Below, in pieces: positions 7,905 through 58,375 of a stretch of 64,000 nucleotides of DNA. Below the pieces are notes generated by a model, which was given only the letters and a program-made list of their open reading frames with translations, was not told the origin of the DNA and searched no databases. This DNA comes from Sclerodactyla briareus (lineage: Eukaryota > Echinodermata > Holothuroidea > Dendrochirotida > Sclerodactylidae). The first letter of the stretch is position 1. Each line of letters opens with the position of its first letter. The stretch lies in NCBI GenBank assembly GCA_026419785.1, contig JAODTK010002765.1:1-64000 (forward strand), read 5' to 3'. The position numbers and the translations under genes are program-made.

Positions 7905-8620
7905 GGTTCGTTGCAACGAGAAAAAAATTGACACAGAAGGGCACAAGGTTCATTATGTCAAATAAGGCCCCATGGTTTTTGACCTTCGGTGAAAACTCAC
8001 CGAAGTCACCGCACCATATGTGCACCACTATACCTGATATGATATGAACTTGATATACGATATCGTGCTGACATAATTTCTGAACTCTGCCCTGTCGTGA
8101 CCTTGAGTGACCTTGGACTGGCACTAAAAAAAACAATAGGGTCTGGTCGTCACGAAAAATTGACCCAAAAGGTCACAAGGCCATTACGTCAAAGCAAGGC
8201 CCCATGGTGACCTTCGGTGAACTTGGTCTGACACCAAAACCTATGGGTTCATCATACCATACTGTGCCAACCATAACGGATATGAACTTGATATACGATA
8301 TCGTGCTGACATAATTTCTGAACTCTGCCCTGTCGTGACCTTGAGTGACCTTGGACTGGCACTAAAAAACAATAGGGTCTGGTCGTCACGAAAAATTGAC
8401 CACGAAGGGCACAAGGTCATTATGTCAAATAAGGCCCCATGGTGACCTTCGGTGAACTTGGTCTGACACCAAAACCTACAGGGTTATCCTCACCCTATGT
8501 GCAACCAATATACCTGATATGAACTTGATATACGATATCGTGCTGACATAATTTCTGAACTCTGCCCTGTCGTGACCTTGAGTGACCTTGGACTGGCACT
8601 AAAAACAATAAGTTCATCCA
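7905..8620. repeat. Tandem satellite, three ~238-bp units
   Basis: The block GATATGAACTTGATATACGA begins at 8,041, 8,279 and 8,516, giving periods of 238 and 237 bp. Each unit also holds a GTGACCTTGAGTGACCTTGG segment and, on the other side, an AAAAATTGACC...GGCCCCATGG segment. The first unit carries small insertions relative to the others. The TGACCT-TGAG-TGACCT core reads on the minus strand as two AGGTCA words in direct repeat with 4-nt spacing. Open frames across it are by-products of the repeat. Confidence 0.9.
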
Positions 8621-49556: not shown

Positions 49557-50725
49557 AGCTGATTTCGGTGCGTCTCGTCGGGTGGTGGCTGAGGGTTTCA
49601 ATGGAGCTCGTAAATAAGCGGTGGGATTCCCGAAACATCAATTATATAGAGCTAGAACGTTACCACGGACGCACGCCTGCTCATTTAGGAGCGCGACTCG
49701 GGCCCCCTTCGTGAATTGCCCGGAAGGGGAGTGGCGCGAGCGTTCCAAGGATGCGACCGTTTCATAACGTTTACTCCAGGCATGCGTTGAGCGTATGCGG
49801 CAAGACGCCAATAATAGAGGATTCATAACGAGCATAACATAAACGTGCCTAATGATGCTGCAATCATCTTGCAGAGATAGAGACAAGTTCCGTAGGAGCA
49901 AACAAAAAATGTTCCAACTAGTTGGAACGGACACTGTGTGAGAAGGCTTACCCAATGCGGCAGCGATGCCGCATCATAGCAAATTGATTCCGTGCAATAT
50001 CTTCCTTATGAAGCAATTACACGTCCTCACCGTGAACAATTAGGTTTTTTTGTTTTTTGTTTTTCTTCTTTCCAGAAAGGACTAATACGGGATAATCTCC
50101 TCCCCCAAAATCCCGCATACGCCCTCTCGCATCTATGAATCCTAGCTGAAACTTGTTTCGGTTGTGCTTGTATTGCCGTATGTGTAACATGCATGGTCCA
50201 CTGTCAACATTGAAACATAAACAGGAATTTTGGAACAATCAATGGTCTACAAATCGCAATGCCACGTATGACATTCACGCAATTCTAATATTTACAACTA
50301 TAACATACCTCCATTTGCAGTTTTGAGTATACACCCTTAGAAAGTACCTTAGCTAGTAAGCCGCCAGAGTTATATCATGGAATCACCGTGCACTGCATTC
50401 AACAGTCCTATGACCTAACATGCGGTCTCCTCCCTAATGATTTAGGGATATGTTCATATTTCAGCAACACCATATCCCTTAGAACAGTTTGAAAATGAAT
50501 TTGCAAAGAAATATCGGTCTACGTTTATCCTCAATAAGTCTAAGTCTAACTATGTAGACATCTTTGTTCTCCCCACGGAGGTGTGAACACTGTGGTGTAG
50601 GCTATGCGTGTATGTATCTTAACTCTGTACGATTTATCCCCAAATGCCACAGTCTCACTGTCCCATATTCTACAGACAGAAGTTGCAAACCTATTGCAAA
50701 CAGCATGTGTTTACAACCGCAGAAG
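49557..50725. other. No recognisable feature
   Basis: Short frames only, no motifs. A T-rich tract occurs near 50,043-50,071. Confidence 0.5.
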
Positions 50726-50745
50726 GAGTAACCAACGATATGAAG

Positions 50746-51012
50746 CACTAACCGATATGATATAAAAATTGACCGATAATGAATCACTTACCGATAATGA
50801 TATAAAAATTGACCGATAATGAAGTAACAATTTTCTTAACCGATAATGAATCACTTACCGATAATGATATAAAAATTGACCGATAATGAATCACTTACCG
50901 ATAATGATATAAAAATTGACCGATAATGAATCACTTACCGATAATGATATAAAAATTGACCGATAATGAATCACTTACCGATAATGATATAAAAATTGAC
51001 CGATAATGAAGT
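50746..51012. repeat. 40-bp subrepeat array, left arm
   Basis: About six units of ACCGATAATGAATCACTT followed by ACCGATAATGATATAAAAAT and TG, with a variant ACCGATAATGAAGTAAC unit at about 50,813 and at the inner end. The last four units are almost identical, so they were copied recently. Each unit holds the word ACCGATAATGA twice, suggesting an original period of about 20 bp. Confidence 0.95.
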
Positions 51013-51206
51013 AACTTTTTTCATTTTTTTCGAGGAAGGGTGGGGAGAGGGGGGTGGTCACGGAAACCGTAAACATATAACCCGTCAACGGGTCCGATCG
51101 GGCTGGTGCAAATGGTTTCCATCCAATATCGATTTCTCAATGCAATTTTCTATCCGACTATGTATTTTCAACCCTTAACTGACGGCGGAGGGTACAAAAA
51201 ATCAAA

Positions 51207-51578
51207 GTGGCGGATTCCAAAAAGAATATTGTGAACAAGGAATTCGGACCCTTAGAAGCCGAATTTGAGTGTCCCCCGTGGATGAAATTTGCAATTCTTC
51301 AATTTGACATGCTCCGATTCGCATATTTGCTATGTCAAATAGTTAAAAAAGGCCATTTCGGCCGTTTGCCAGGCAAGGAAATGCTTCAAACACTTTTTGT
51401 TTTTTTATTTGCCTCCAGGACGCGAGTGAAATACCCAAGAGTCGGACATATATCATGCATCTCAGATCACGCCGGATCCAATGAGCTCTACCCAGAGCTC
51501 ATAGCATATTGGCATTTTACCGATTATCAGGTCGCTCAGAAATGCTCGGATTTCCAGGCTACCATCGCCTATATCTGA
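51207..51578 (+). other. Open frame inside the left arm, probably not a gene
   Basis: A 123-codon frame lies wholly within the inverted arm. The homologous stretch of the right arm (55,053-55,259 on the minus strand) aligns at DNA level but its frame is shifted and stopped. No domain is recognised. The ORF is therefore taken as accidental, although a small element-encoded protein cannot be excluded. Confidence 0.2.
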
Positions 51579-52035
51579 AAAAAAAACTAAACAAAAGTGA
51601 GGAAATGACCTCTGCGCGGCATTGTGTTCGCCGCCCAAACTATCCACGGTTCCGTTATTTTTTAATTTGATTCAGTAGTGGCGGCTGATTTTTTTAGGAT
51701 CTACCTTTCTCGGCCACCGTAGAGTTATCAAAGAGTGGAATAACCAATGGGGGGGGTTGACTAAACGCGCCATAATTTGTTGTGGACCAAGTGCAACAAC
51801 GTTAGTTTTTGCGTGTTGAAACCGGCGTTTGAGCTTCTTTCGCCCGATCGCTTCCATTGACCAATATGTATAATACGTTAATAATTCTACGTCCTCGGGT
51901 CAAAATACACAACAGAGCTTGGCCTCCAACCTATAAAGCGAATGTTGGCCTTTTATTTAGAATACTTTGGGAATTTCCCTACCAGTACGATAGCGTCTGC
52001 TCGAGCAGGCTAGGGAACTTCTGGACGGGGGCGAC

Positions 52036-52076
52036 GCCAGCGGGGGGGGGGGGGGGAGGGGGGGTGGGGAGGGGAC
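52036..52076. repeat. Poly-G tract in the foldback centre
   Basis: G runs of about 15, 7, 4 and 4 within 40 nt (AGCGGGGGGG...GGGGAGGGG). It is quadruplex-prone and a likely site of sequencing error. Confidence 0.85.
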
Positions 52077-53320
52077 TCAGTCAGTGACTCCCCGTCAGGG
52101 AAAGAAATCGAGGGGGTGTCGGGAGGCTAAACAACTGACATCAACATCACGAGCACAGCAAGCGCGTGCTGGAACTGCGGTGGGGGCCATTTTCATAGGA
52201 TAGCGAGACTTCGGACTAGGGTTGCCAGTGCGATTTTTTTGAAAATCTCTCTTCCAAGAATATGGCTCGTATCTTGAGAATACCGTTTGTCATAGGGGGA
52301 TATTACTTCGGCGTAAAAGATCGACTAACGCATAGATCAGAATCGAAAACATTGGTTATACTGAACTGGTATATCAACGGGTGACGGGTTTATTTCAGAA
52401 TTTGGAATCGGGGTGGCGCCCTGATCTCTTCCCTCGGCCACCGTGGAGTTACTCGGGCGGCGAAAACAGGGCGTATTGAAGGAGGCTTTCCGTACTCAAA
52501 TGGGCGACTAACACCCCATAAACTGTGATGGGAATGCCACGGGGGATGGTGTTGGTCATTCTCTGCTTTCTGGGGACATTCCACGGCCGAGGGTTCATGA
52601 GACCGACGGCCCGCGAGACCGACAGCCCGCGAGACCGGAGGTCCAGTATAAAATAGGGCCAGTCACAACAGCTGATGACGACCGCATATAATAGTGGCGG
52701 TCGGTGGTGTGCCCTAGGACCGTTTTTAACAACTAGTCTGCGCAGGGACTTGTCTCGTACCATGGCAACCAGCTTGTCACGTGGTTTACCACCCTGTACT
52801 CGTTTAATTCAGGTAACCGCTCAGCAGCTCGGTTGACTTTTTTATCTGGCTACGTGGGTTGTGATTGGCTGAGCATAGAATTAGATGAATACGGTGTACT
52901 TGTTTTGCATAGTTAGTTCTACTAATTACTTACTCCTACTACTTACTACTGTCCGCGTGTGGTATAGGTATTAGTGGTCTGCAGACATTCGCACTAATTT
53001 TACATGAACCTGTACGCCGGCGCATAGACCCCAATCGAGTACTGAATGTTTCGCAGGACACGTGACCCACTCTGCAATTTGTCGTTCGGGCCTCACCCTG
53101 GCGCGAATGCGCTAATTACGTCCTCACTTGTGTTAAAAAAACCGTTAGGCCAAACGCCGAAGCCACTAACGTGACTTCTTGAGCATACACGATAGGGCAA
53201 TTTTGCTCCTGTTTACTAAACAGAGTGAACGGGACTAGCTCCATTGGCATCGTCAGGTCATACGGGGTCAAGTTATCAGCTGCCACGCACATTCTTAACA
53301 TGTAAGTCTTTGAGTATGGG
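52077..53320. other. Foldback centre, no gene recognised
   Basis: The word CTCGGCCACCGTRGAGTTA occurs at 51,707 and again at 52,434. A short repeat GAGACCGACRGCCCGC is present two to three times near 52,600-52,637. No transposase or other domain was found on either strand. Confidence 0.4.
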
Positions 53321-53925
53321 GATCCGTGATCGGTTGCGTATTCATACGAACCATTGACTCCACCACTGACACACATAGCTCAATAGATTCCATATTCGTA
53401 CGAACTAATTGCCTCCTCACGGGGCACACGCAGATCAATATCAATTGCATATTCGTACGAACAATCGACTTTCCCACGCACATACTTAGACGCAATAATC
53501 GATACGTTTTTCATACGAAAGCAATTGATTCACCCCGACATACTCATATCAATTGATTGCGTTTTCCATAGCGAACAATTGACTTACACACGGCATATTT
53601 AGATCCATATCGGTTACGGTTTCGCGTACGAACCTATTGAACTCATAACTGACACACATATAATTTATAATGGTTGCGTATTCGTACGATCTAATTTTAC
53701 TCAGTCACGTACCGGTACTACTTTGATCATATTATTCCGTTTTCGTACGAACCAGTTGACTCACCACGGACATACTTATGCCTATAGCAATCGATGGTGG
53801 CGTATCCATCCGTACGAACTAACAACGTACCACGGACGTAGATCTTTATCGATTATCGATACGTTCTCGTACGAACCAGACCAATTGACGCACCACGGAC
53901 ATACGTATATCAATATCCATTCCTT
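53320..53925. repeat. ~57-62-bp minisatellite centred on TTCGTACGAA
   Basis: About ten degenerate units each contain a TTCGTACGAA-like palindrome (for example 53,341, 53,395, 53,452, 53,510, 53,681, 53,742 and 53,867), then a YAATTGACTCACCACGGACA-like stretch and ATACTTAGATCAATATCGAT-like sequence. The palindrome is the best-kept part of the unit. It lies in the centre of the foldback-like element. Confidence 0.85.
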
Positions 53926-55369
53926 TTTGGAGAAAAAGCGTTTGTCGTACACCGCGCGGCGGGTACTTGCTACGAAAAGCGCAGCCCCTCTAAACGGAGC
54001 GCCAGAATGGTGGTCAAGGGATCGTACAAGAAAATGGTTTTTTTCTTCATTTTGACACCACAGATCGATACAAATGACACTTTCTGGCATATGGCCGCAT
54101 CGAACCCCATGGTCCATGTGTCACAATTACGGGGGCGTATATTCCTGCCGCGGAGTTCAAAATTTATGAGAATTATCGTCGTTATCTGCGAATGCTATCA
54201 AAACTGTCAAGCAACTCCTGTTTAAGATGACACTGCATCACACCTCAAATTTTGTCAAATTTTTCTTAACGACGACTTAGGTTTTTATATTGTAATAACG
54301 GAATGCATGCATTTGACGGTCCCACCTATACCAAGTCCTATTTCACGGGATGCATTTTATATTGCGCAATGATGACAGGCTGTTACAGGCCCCTTCAATG
54401 TGTGAGCTGAGGAATTGAACATTCCGACCAGTGTTTTTTGCAACTACGGCTTGTAGATACCCCGATAGGCTACAAGCCTATAAATTTGCGGAAGTTCAGC
54501 GCGAGCAAAACTGTCAATTGCTTTTGCCTATTGGCGTATTTCCATTTCTGCACACAAGTGGGGGGGGGGGGGTTGAACCCCACACCCCCGGTCGCGACGG
54601 TCGGGTGGTTGATTCCCCTACCCCACCCCCCCCCCCCAAAAAAAAAAAAAGAAAAACATACACACCACTCGGTGGCGGGCGGCCATGATTTGTCCTATTT
54701 TTTCAGGAATCAGGTTGCCACTCAAGATCAAAATGAAAGAACAGAACTGAAAGCTGTTTGGGGCGGCAAACACAATGCCGCAATTCATTTCCCCATATCT
54801 TGTTTTATTTTTTGAGATATATAAGCGACGGCAGCTTATGAATCTTGCATTTTGAGTGACAATAAATTAACTCGGGTATAGCTCGAATTTCATCATATCA
54901 TTATGTATATTCATATAATTATATAATAATGTCCGATGGTGTATATTCCTACTTGGTCGATAAAGATAAATTCCGAAAAAGCCGTTTGAAGCCTTTACTG
55001 CCTCATATCGCCTGAAAAATAGCATTTTGAGCACTGTTAGTTGATATAGAAACTATGTGAATCGGAGTTTGTCATATCGATGAAGTGTAATTTCATCACC
55101 TGAACACTTTATTCGGATTTCACGGATCCGAATGACCCGGTTCCATTTTTTTCTGCAATCCACCATCTTGTCCGCCATTTTAATTTTTGCGTACTCGGCC
55201 GTAAAGGGTTGAAAAAAATCATAGTTCGATGAAATTGGCATGAAATCGATTGGAACCAATTTTTTTTTTTCAGCCCGATCGGACCTCGTTTGACGGAGTT
55301 ATGGTTACGGTTTCCGTGACCCACCCCCCCCCCCCACTCCCCCACCCATTCCTCGAAAAAAATGAAAAG

Positions 55370-55686
55370 TTACTTCATTATCGGTCAATTTTTATATCAT
55401 TATCCGTTAGTGATTCATTATCGGTCAAATTTTGTATCATTATCGGTTAGTGATTCATGAAAAAGTCGGTCAAATTGAAAATTGAAAATTATCGGTCAAA
55501 TTGGTGATTCATTATCGGTTAAGAAAATTGTTACTTCATTATCGGTTAGACCCATGATTCGATATCGGTTGAAAAGTTACTTCATTATCGGTCAATTTTT
55601 ATATCATTATCCGTTAGTGATTCATTATCGGTCAATTTTTATATCATTATTGGTTAGTGATTCATTATCGGTTGGTTACTTCATTA
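55370..55686. repeat. 40-bp subrepeat array, right arm (inverted)
   Basis: The reverse complement of the left array: TCATTATCGGTCAATTTTTA and TATCATTATCCGTTAGTGAT words alternate, with a damaged stretch around 55,455-55,500. It is more diverged than the left array. Confidence 0.95.
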
Positions 55687-56077
55687 TATGTTGCCGATAA
55701 AAACACACTGCCCGTTGTTAGTGATGACTAGTTCATGTGCAACTGACGATGCTGCGAGAGTGGACAGAAGGGCCGGGCGAATCGCCTTAGGGAGTTTCTG
55801 GTTCCAGGTAAACAGATTATGTATAAATGAGCACCTACTGGAACTCGAGTTCAATGAAGACACTTTGCTAACTATCGCAGCTGACCAAGATAAAATTCCT
55901 TCATAATCTGAATTTCTGTCTGAAAAGTCTCATACTGTATTGCTGCAAAAAGGGGCGCTCATCTGGATGAATATGGTAGGCTCCGCTCGAGCGCACGCTG
56001 GATGACCCTGTCCTGAGAGCGCGCCGCCGCCCCCAGGTTATCGGCTGAAGTGGTGAGGGCGCGAGCAGTACCGGGAA
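55687..56077. other. No gene confirmed
   Basis: A 72-codon frame (55,688-55,906) contains CAG|GTAAAC near 55,806 that could serve as a donor, but there is no recognisable protein and no clear start. Treated as unassigned. Confidence 0.35.
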
Positions 56078-57026: not shown

Positions 57027-57300
57027 TAAGTAGTGTTCGTGAGTGTGCGTGTGCGCATGCTGTGTAAACTAGCTGAATTAGAGTACGTGTGCGCATGCTG
57101 TGTGGGCTGACTGAATAAGAGTACGTGTGCGCACGCTGTGTAACCTAGCTGAATTAAAGTGCGTGTGCGCATGCTGTGTAAACTAGCTGAATAAAGTTCG
57201 TGTGCGCATGCTGTGTAAGCTGGCTGAATTAGAGTGCGTGTGCGCATGCTGTGTGGACTGACTGAATTAGAGTGCCGTGTGCGCATGCTGTGTGGGCTGA
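57027..57300. repeat. 38-bp minisatellite, first block (~7 units)
   Basis: Units of GAGTGCGTGTGCGCATGCTG followed by TGTGGGCTGACTGAATTA. These first units more often carry the variant TGTAAACTAGCTGAAT. Frames repeating RTRTLIQ and HTACAH on the minus strand are by-products. Confidence 0.95.
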
Positions 57301-57480
57301 CCTAGGCCGGCAATCCAACGCTAACGGCCCTATGCTGGGCTGACGCCGGTGTGTAAAATGGCAGTACGCGCAGTTTTCCATTGTCTTCAGACGCGCTACC
57401 TGAAAATGTCCTTGAAAGAGTAACACAGACCGTAGTTGATCAATCAATTTAACGCGGAAATGTAATCCGTATGCTGTATA
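57301..57480. other. Non-repeat interruption inside the minisatellite
   Basis: About 180 nt without the monomer (CCTAGGCCGGCAATCCAACG ... AAATGTAATCCGTATGCTG). It may be an insertion or an original flank joined by rearrangement. No inverted ends were seen. Confidence 0.6.
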
Positions 57481-58375
57481 TGTTGGCTGAATTAGAGTGC
57501 GTGTGCGCATGCTGTGTGGGCTGACTGAATAAGAGTACGTGTGCGCATGCTGTGTGGGCTGACTGAATAAGAGTACGTGTGCGCATGCTGTGTGGGCTGG
57601 CTGAATTAGAGTGCGTGTGCGCATGCTGTGTGGGCTAACTGAATTAGAGTGCGTGTGCGCATGCGTGTGGGCTGGCTGAATTAGAGTGCTGTGCGCATGC
57701 TGTGTGGGCTGACTGAATTAGAGTGCGTGTGCGCATGCTGGGTGGGCTGGCTGAATTAGAGTGCGTTGCGCATGCTGTGTGGGCTGGCTGAATTAGAGTG
57801 CGTGTGCGCATGCTGTATATGCTGGCTGAATTAGAGTGCGGTGTGCGCATGCTGTGTGGGCTGACTGAATTAGAGTGCGTTGCGCATGCTGTGTGGACTG
57901 ACTGAATTAGAGTGCGTGTGCGCATGCTGTGTGGACTGACTGAATTAGAGTGCGTTGCGCATGCTGTGTGGGCTGGCTGAATTAGAGTGCGGTGTGCGCA
58001 TGCTGTGTGGGCTGACTGAATAAGAGTGCGTGTGCGCATGCTGTATATGTTGGCTGAATTAGAGTGCGTGTGCGCATGCTGTATATGTTGGCTGAATTAG
58101 AGTGCTGTGCGCATGCTGTGTGGGCTGACTGCATTAGAGTGCGTGTGCGCATGCTGTGTGGGCTGACTGAATTAGAGTGCGTGTGCGCATGCTGTGTGGA
58201 CTGACTGAATTAGAGGGCGTGTGCGCATGCTGGGTGGGCTGGCTGAATTAGAGTGCGTGTGCGCATGCTGTATATGCTGGCTGAATTAGAGTGCGTGGTG
58301 CGCATGCTGTGTAAGCTGGCTGAATTAGAGTGCGTTGCGCATGCTGCGTGAGCTGGCTGAACTGGAGTGCACGCG
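57480..58375. repeat. 38-bp minisatellite, main block (~23 units)
   Basis: About 23 units counted by the GCGCATGC word. Common variants are GGCTGACTG or GGCTGGCTG, TGTGTGGGC or TGTATATG, and losses of two bases in GTGCGT(GT)GCG. The array ends at about 58,375 in a monomer reading GCTGGCTGAACTGGAGTGCA. A single diverged monomer also occurs at about 59,928-59,965. Confidence 0.95.

Follow-up and report, generated by a model that had tools for sequence, protein, structure and literature searches.

The question raised by this locus is whether two long inverted arms, found in a 64,000-nucleotide stretch of the Sclerodactyla briareus genome (contig JAODTK010002765.1, positions 1 to 64,000; hereafter the window), belong to a single mobile element and, if so, what kind of enzyme might have moved it. 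An earlier note, made from the letters alone, had described a foldback-like element of about 5 kb at 50728..55686. Comparison with other copies confirms the element and shifts its borders to 50708..55705 (no strand assigned), a length of 5 kb, with TGTTTACAACC at one end and AAAAACA at the other, both mutated relative to the family. The element is a member of a dispersed family, in which the ends, the arms and the motif arrays recur from copy to copy and the cores, where tested, hold no recognisable gene. We are therefore confident, short of certainty, that these are non-autonomous DNA transposons of the foldback type and that the window element is one of their decayed copies.

The arms are inverted, as had been proposed. 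Aligned with each other, 50727–51341 and the reversed 55038–55680 are 76.7% identical over 664 columns (E 1.6e-120); with the borders set by copy comparison, the left arm occupies 50708..51342 on the plus strand and the right arm 55038..55705 on the minus strand. The proposed homology of about 1 kb, in contrast, did not hold, because the continuous arm measures about 0.64 kb; the longer figure is reached solely if a weak inner inverted patch is counted, whose partners at 51558..51639 (plus strand) and 54758..54835 (minus strand) match at 74% over 85 columns. The arrays of a 40-bp unit noticed in the outer arms are real, and a tandem repeat scan found 4.3 copies with 100% matches at 50839–51010. 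This unit is composed of an 18-bp and a 22-bp half-unit that have ACCGATAATGA in common. Allowing up to two mismatches, the motif stands in direct repeat 12 times in the left array (50772..51009, plus strand), mostly 18 or 22 bp apart, and 14 times in the right one (55375..55691, minus strand). In the two 420-base ends of 18 element sequences (for five of these, one of the two is not a true element end), motifs again follow each other most often at 22 bp (67 cases) and 18 bp (58 cases).

The doubled 40-bp unit has at least 86 matches on 33 contigs of the 319-Mb assembly. For comparison we used 21 loci, namely the window and up to 10 kb from each of 20 of the 32 other contigs (numbered with an L below). 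Of the 21 loci, 18 contain inner-arm sequence, and 16 of these have it in both orientations. One arm each was found in L020 and L022, in both of which the element reaches the end of the stretch examined, and L014, L023 and L025 have the repeat part alone. L028, on a different contig, aligns colinearly with the window element along its length, at 77.4%. Long inverted arms with tandem repeats around a variable middle thus characterize the family, as they do foldback elements.

Do the two arms travel together? A tree was built from those inner arms of at least 180 bases, 31 of the 34 found; the second arms of L016, L024 and L026 were left out. Two clades emerge, each supported at 100/100: L, with 15 arms that include the left arm of the window element, and R, with 16 arms that include its right arm. 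For 13 elements the tree contains both arms, and in every case one is L-type and the other R-type; the omitted second arms of L016 and L024 match the R query alone, as expected. Arms occurring as unrelated single insertions, which the earlier note had named as grounds for abandoning its reading, were not seen in the 21 loci, with a possible qualification for L026 that is taken up below. Inside L and R alike the branching is star-like, end branches having a median of 0.11; the bootstrap had not converged (0.923). Such a shape fits a burst from a source whose two arms were already different, followed by decay.

Insertions of the family leave 6-bp, GC-rich target duplications. The family ends are TGTTACAACC...GGTTGTAACA, and 29 recognisable ends, some of them set by eye, give the inward terminal consensus TGTTACAACCG and consensus ends TG..CA. 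Among the 10 copies with both ends reading TGTT, 77% of bases agree between flanks at 6 bp compared with 31% in swapped flanks, and four copies have an exact 6-bp duplication (L011 ACACTG, L015 CACCAC, L019 CCCCCC and L021 GAGGAG) compared with none of 90 swapped pairs. At lengths of 7 to 10 no copy is exact and agreement (30–37% of bases) is near the swapped level. Partial matches at 6 bp were found in L027 and L028 (5/6), L009 and L026 (4/6) and L012 (3/6). A set of 14 copies with partly hand-set ends again peaks at 6 bp (69% versus 30%), with exact duplications in 5 of 14 copies versus 1 of 182 swapped pairs, the addition being CCCCCA in L014. The G+C content of the outside 6-mers is 70% against 42% in random 6-mers of the window, a level not reached in any of 2000 samples, although a copy contributes two ends, which are not independent of each other. 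L014, a copy of only 447 bp, also provides a candidate empty site: its joined flanks match the 305–311 bp satellite monomer of L010 (70% over 171 columns, E 5.8e-11) and the satellite monomer of L020 (69% over 93 columns, E 0.01). Both matches span the junction, with small gaps there, and the element is absent from the monomers; at a harsher search setting no match for the L014 flanks was obtained. The 13 of 13 L-plus-R arm pairs, the 6-bp duplications and the L014 match together support the view that the element moves as one unit.

These observations also bear on the idea that there is no single element at all, only an error of assembly or two insertions that arose independently and face opposite ways. 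The window copy, having no readable duplication, would agree with that idea; however, the layout recurs colinearly in L028, which lies on another contig, and every copy with both arms in the tree has one arm per clade. We consider this explanation extremely improbable, and chance or assembly artefact is rejected by the dispersed copies, the two arm clades and the target duplications.

The next question is to which class of foldback elements the family belongs. The earlier note had matched the element to FB/TU architecture, and the foldback-like architecture stands. TU elements of sea urchin likewise are foldback elements whose outer domain is made up of short tandem repeats, a likeness by description; they differ in making an 8-bp duplication. 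In the P superfamily, including Galileo, the duplication is 7–8 bp. Most foldback elements seem to be Mutator elements according to the Tetris paper (PMC4079207), so that the shared architecture would suggest a foldback of the usual classes, either Mutator, as Tetris and Tm1, or P, as Galileo; copies without a readable duplication are compatible with this too. Tetris of D. virilis, placed in Mutator by its authors, who found no autonomous copy, is similar in being a non-autonomous foldback with tandem-repeat arms and a variable middle without coding capacity, but makes duplications of 8–10 bp (PMC4079207). Tm1 of root-knot nematodes is similar in that its arms are composite and vary in how many copies of a short tandem motif they contain; it differs in its mostly 9-bp duplications, in a motif of about 14 bp and of another kind, and in that some copies encode a putative transposase (PMC3169594). 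Galileo of Drosophila has long arms with internal tandem repeats as well, although its sequence is different and its transposase is P-type (PMC3688188). In our family, flank agreement peaks at exactly 6 bp and none of the 10 copies is exact at 7–10 bp. A 6-bp duplication combined with TG..CA ends therefore argues against both Mutator and P, the usual foldback classes, which makes such an origin very unlikely, and filing the family with FB/TU is not upheld. No foldback family with 6-bp duplications turned up in the open literature, which is a weak statement about what is in print.

Duplications of 6 bp are made by Polinton/Maverick elements, which use an integrase and have ends AG..CT. A non-autonomous derivative of such an element would account for both the 6-bp duplication and the long arms, and the Polinton integrase has been grouped with enzymes of the IS3EU/GingerRoot type (PMC10045372). 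However, the window family begins with TG rather than AG, and no Polinton-type protein was found in the cores tested; we regard this origin as unlikely. A derivative of the hAT superfamily, of the hAT6 kind with 6-bp duplications, is less probable still, given that hAT ends usually read CAGGG or similar and those of the window family TGTTAC. Nevertheless, hAT families with 6-bp duplications have been reported (PMC12730594). IS3EU elements agree in their mostly 6-bp duplications, but have TA..TA ends (PMC10045372; PMC12730594) where our family has TG..CA. TGTTA fits the TGTNR ends of Ginger1 and Ginger2; the duplications of these elements, however, are 4 bp, except for 5 bp in TDD-4 and TDD-5 (PMC2836005), and not 6 bp. 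GingerRoot elements combine 6-bp duplications with ends that are TA..TA and occasionally TG..CA (PMC10045372), and the window family agrees with them in the duplication and, in the rarer form, in the ends. GingerRoot is thus the nearest fit on ends and stagger. We do not file the family there, because it comes without a transposase: GingerRoot is defined by an integrase-like transposase (PMC10045372), and no integrase-like DDE transposase was found in the cores scanned (the window element and L027 1900–6700). Repeat-built arms are not mentioned in the available part of the GingerRoot description (PMC10045372).

What, then, lies between the arms? In the interior of the window element (51343..55037, no strand assigned) no gene is recognisable: a Pfam scan of six read-through frames of 50703–55702 returned no family at E up to 0.5. 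Six frames of L027 1900–6700 gave no match above the cut-off (best DUF7197, E 0.089, 12.9 bits, cut-off 27), and when eight frames of L027 and L018 were scanned singly, the best match was PMI_typeI_C (E 0.047, 14.3 bits), below its cut-off of 21. For three cores the longest consensus frame was set against 200 mononucleotide shuffles per core: it is 108 aa in core A (95% level 161 aa), 128 aa in core B (134 aa) and 101 aa in core D (133 aa). The core B frame nearly reaches its level. A coding interior is rejected for the cores tested. There were no tRNA genes in the 17 loci scanned, no Rfam matches in the window or in the 8 loci scanned, and no exact match to a 33-base pattern in viral contigs. 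Separately, a frame at L016:1514–1768, near a run of 2500 N, resembles the C-terminal part of a helicase (UvrD_C_2, E 0.0011, 19.2 bits against a cut-off of 27.4) and looks Helitron-like.

The spacer had also been said to carry an independent array of TTCGTACGAA palindromes. The array is present, but the true repeat is a degenerate tandem unit of about 58 bp that carries the palindrome, with nine units recognised at 53329..53907 (plus strand). Exact copies of TTCGTACGAA number three within the array (53395, 53452 and 53742) and one elsewhere in the window (40824); with up to two mismatches, 10 places were counted within 53341–53967. In the unit, TTCGTACGAA sits within a longer imperfect palindrome that, as DNA, is predicted to fold into an imperfect hairpin (z −2.7). 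We do not claim special selection on the palindrome, its conservation being 0.91 versus 0.87 in the rest of the unit. Eight of the 10 copies tested (window, L028, L017, L026, L009, L010, L020 and L012) have 7–10 units, one of the seven in L009 lying apart; the other two, L018 and L027, have one unit each. A second core of up to 4.8 kb is wholly or partly common to L027, L018, L012, L015, L021 and L022, and a core of 0.9 kb is common to L011, L016, L019 and L024. Since L012 holds parts of both the array-bearing core and the 4.8-kb core, the source element was probably longer than the window copy.

How might an element without a gene of its own move? In the arms, the same 11 bases of ACCGATAATGA recur with three different followers (TATAAAA, ATCACT and AGTAAC). 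In Galileo, repeats in the arms have been shown to contain secondary transposase binding sites (PMC3688188). By this analogy and because of the recurrence, ACCGATAATGA is a putative transposase binding site. A transposase made elsewhere would bind the arrays of ACCGATAATGA in the arms, pair the two ends, cut at TG/CA and, with a stagger of 6 bp, insert the element. The copies themselves show the stagger and the movement as one unit; the enzyme and its binding to the motif we infer. Our leading candidate, put forward tentatively from ends and stagger, would be of the GingerRoot kind, an integrase-like DDE enzyme. Conservation in a register of 142 units is 0.94–1.00 for the motif versus 0.78–0.97 for the AT-rich spacer. 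Special selection on the motif relative to all spacers is not claimed, since conservation alone does not single it out.

Several observations weigh against a decayed, non-autonomous foldback family mobilised in this way. The window copy has no readable 6-bp duplication (one of six bases agrees), and neither do L009, L010, L012 and L017. Both arms of L026 may be R-like, since the first belongs to R and the second scores higher as R (105 bits) than as L (98.7 bits). The end branches of the two window arms are unequal (0.11 versus 0.024) and unexplained, which is odd because both arms of a single insertion should decay equally; recombination between copies is a possible cause. In a register of 130 units, the ATCACT spacer equals the motif in conservation, and a single column of the motif drops to 0.88. 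Finally, most GingerRoot ends are TA..TA (PMC10045372). As a separate matter, both outer flanks of the L009 copy (L009:2425 and L009:7243) read GTGCTC towards the element and so are inverted, not direct, copies, the result of either chance or later rearrangement.

It had further been suggested that the whole unit could form a giant hairpin or serve as a source of double-stranded RNA (dsRNA). When the two arms are folded together as RNA strands, 535 inter-arm pairs are predicted compared with 50–170 in 20 shuffles of 2-base blocks, and a long hairpin is therefore physically possible. That number also speaks for a hairpin RNA source (siRNA or piRNA) selected by the host, as opposed to a mere transposon relic. 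However, the pairing follows from the inverted arms alone, and the star-like clades with their median end branch are as expected of decay, which makes host selection highly improbable; a dsRNA role of the element is only a folding possibility.

Other repeats lie in or near the copies. A satellite array of 305–311 bp units is found inside element copies (L010:3167–4995 and L020:5128–8204) and directly outside the right end of the L009 copy (L009:7244–8539), and the short L014 copy is inserted in a relative of this satellite. The window itself has a minisatellite at 57045–58370, of a 38-bp unit with GCGCATGC (main block 57484–58370, 23.4 copies), and a tandem repeat at 8041–8605 (237-bp unit, 2.4 copies) that has no match to the L010 satellite at E 1e-3.

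Overall, the 6-bp duplication and the TG..CA ends go against the usual assignment of foldback elements, for many of which the mobilising enzyme is unknown; the authors of the Tetris paper, for example, found no autonomous copy (PMC4079207). It is possible, with somewhat less than an even chance, that the family represents a foldback lineage outside Mutator and P, moved by an integrase-like transposase of the GingerRoot kind for which the long arrays of an 11-bp sequence would be the recognition sites and GC-rich 6-mers the targets of insertion. If true, repeat-built arms would have arisen a further time, in this case with enzymes akin to retroviral integrases. The terminal sequence offers a concrete key for finding the autonomous partner. 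That repeated sites in long arms give a transposase its specificity has been proposed for Galileo (PMC3688188), and with the partner, if it is found, one could test directly whether many short sites in long arms do so here.

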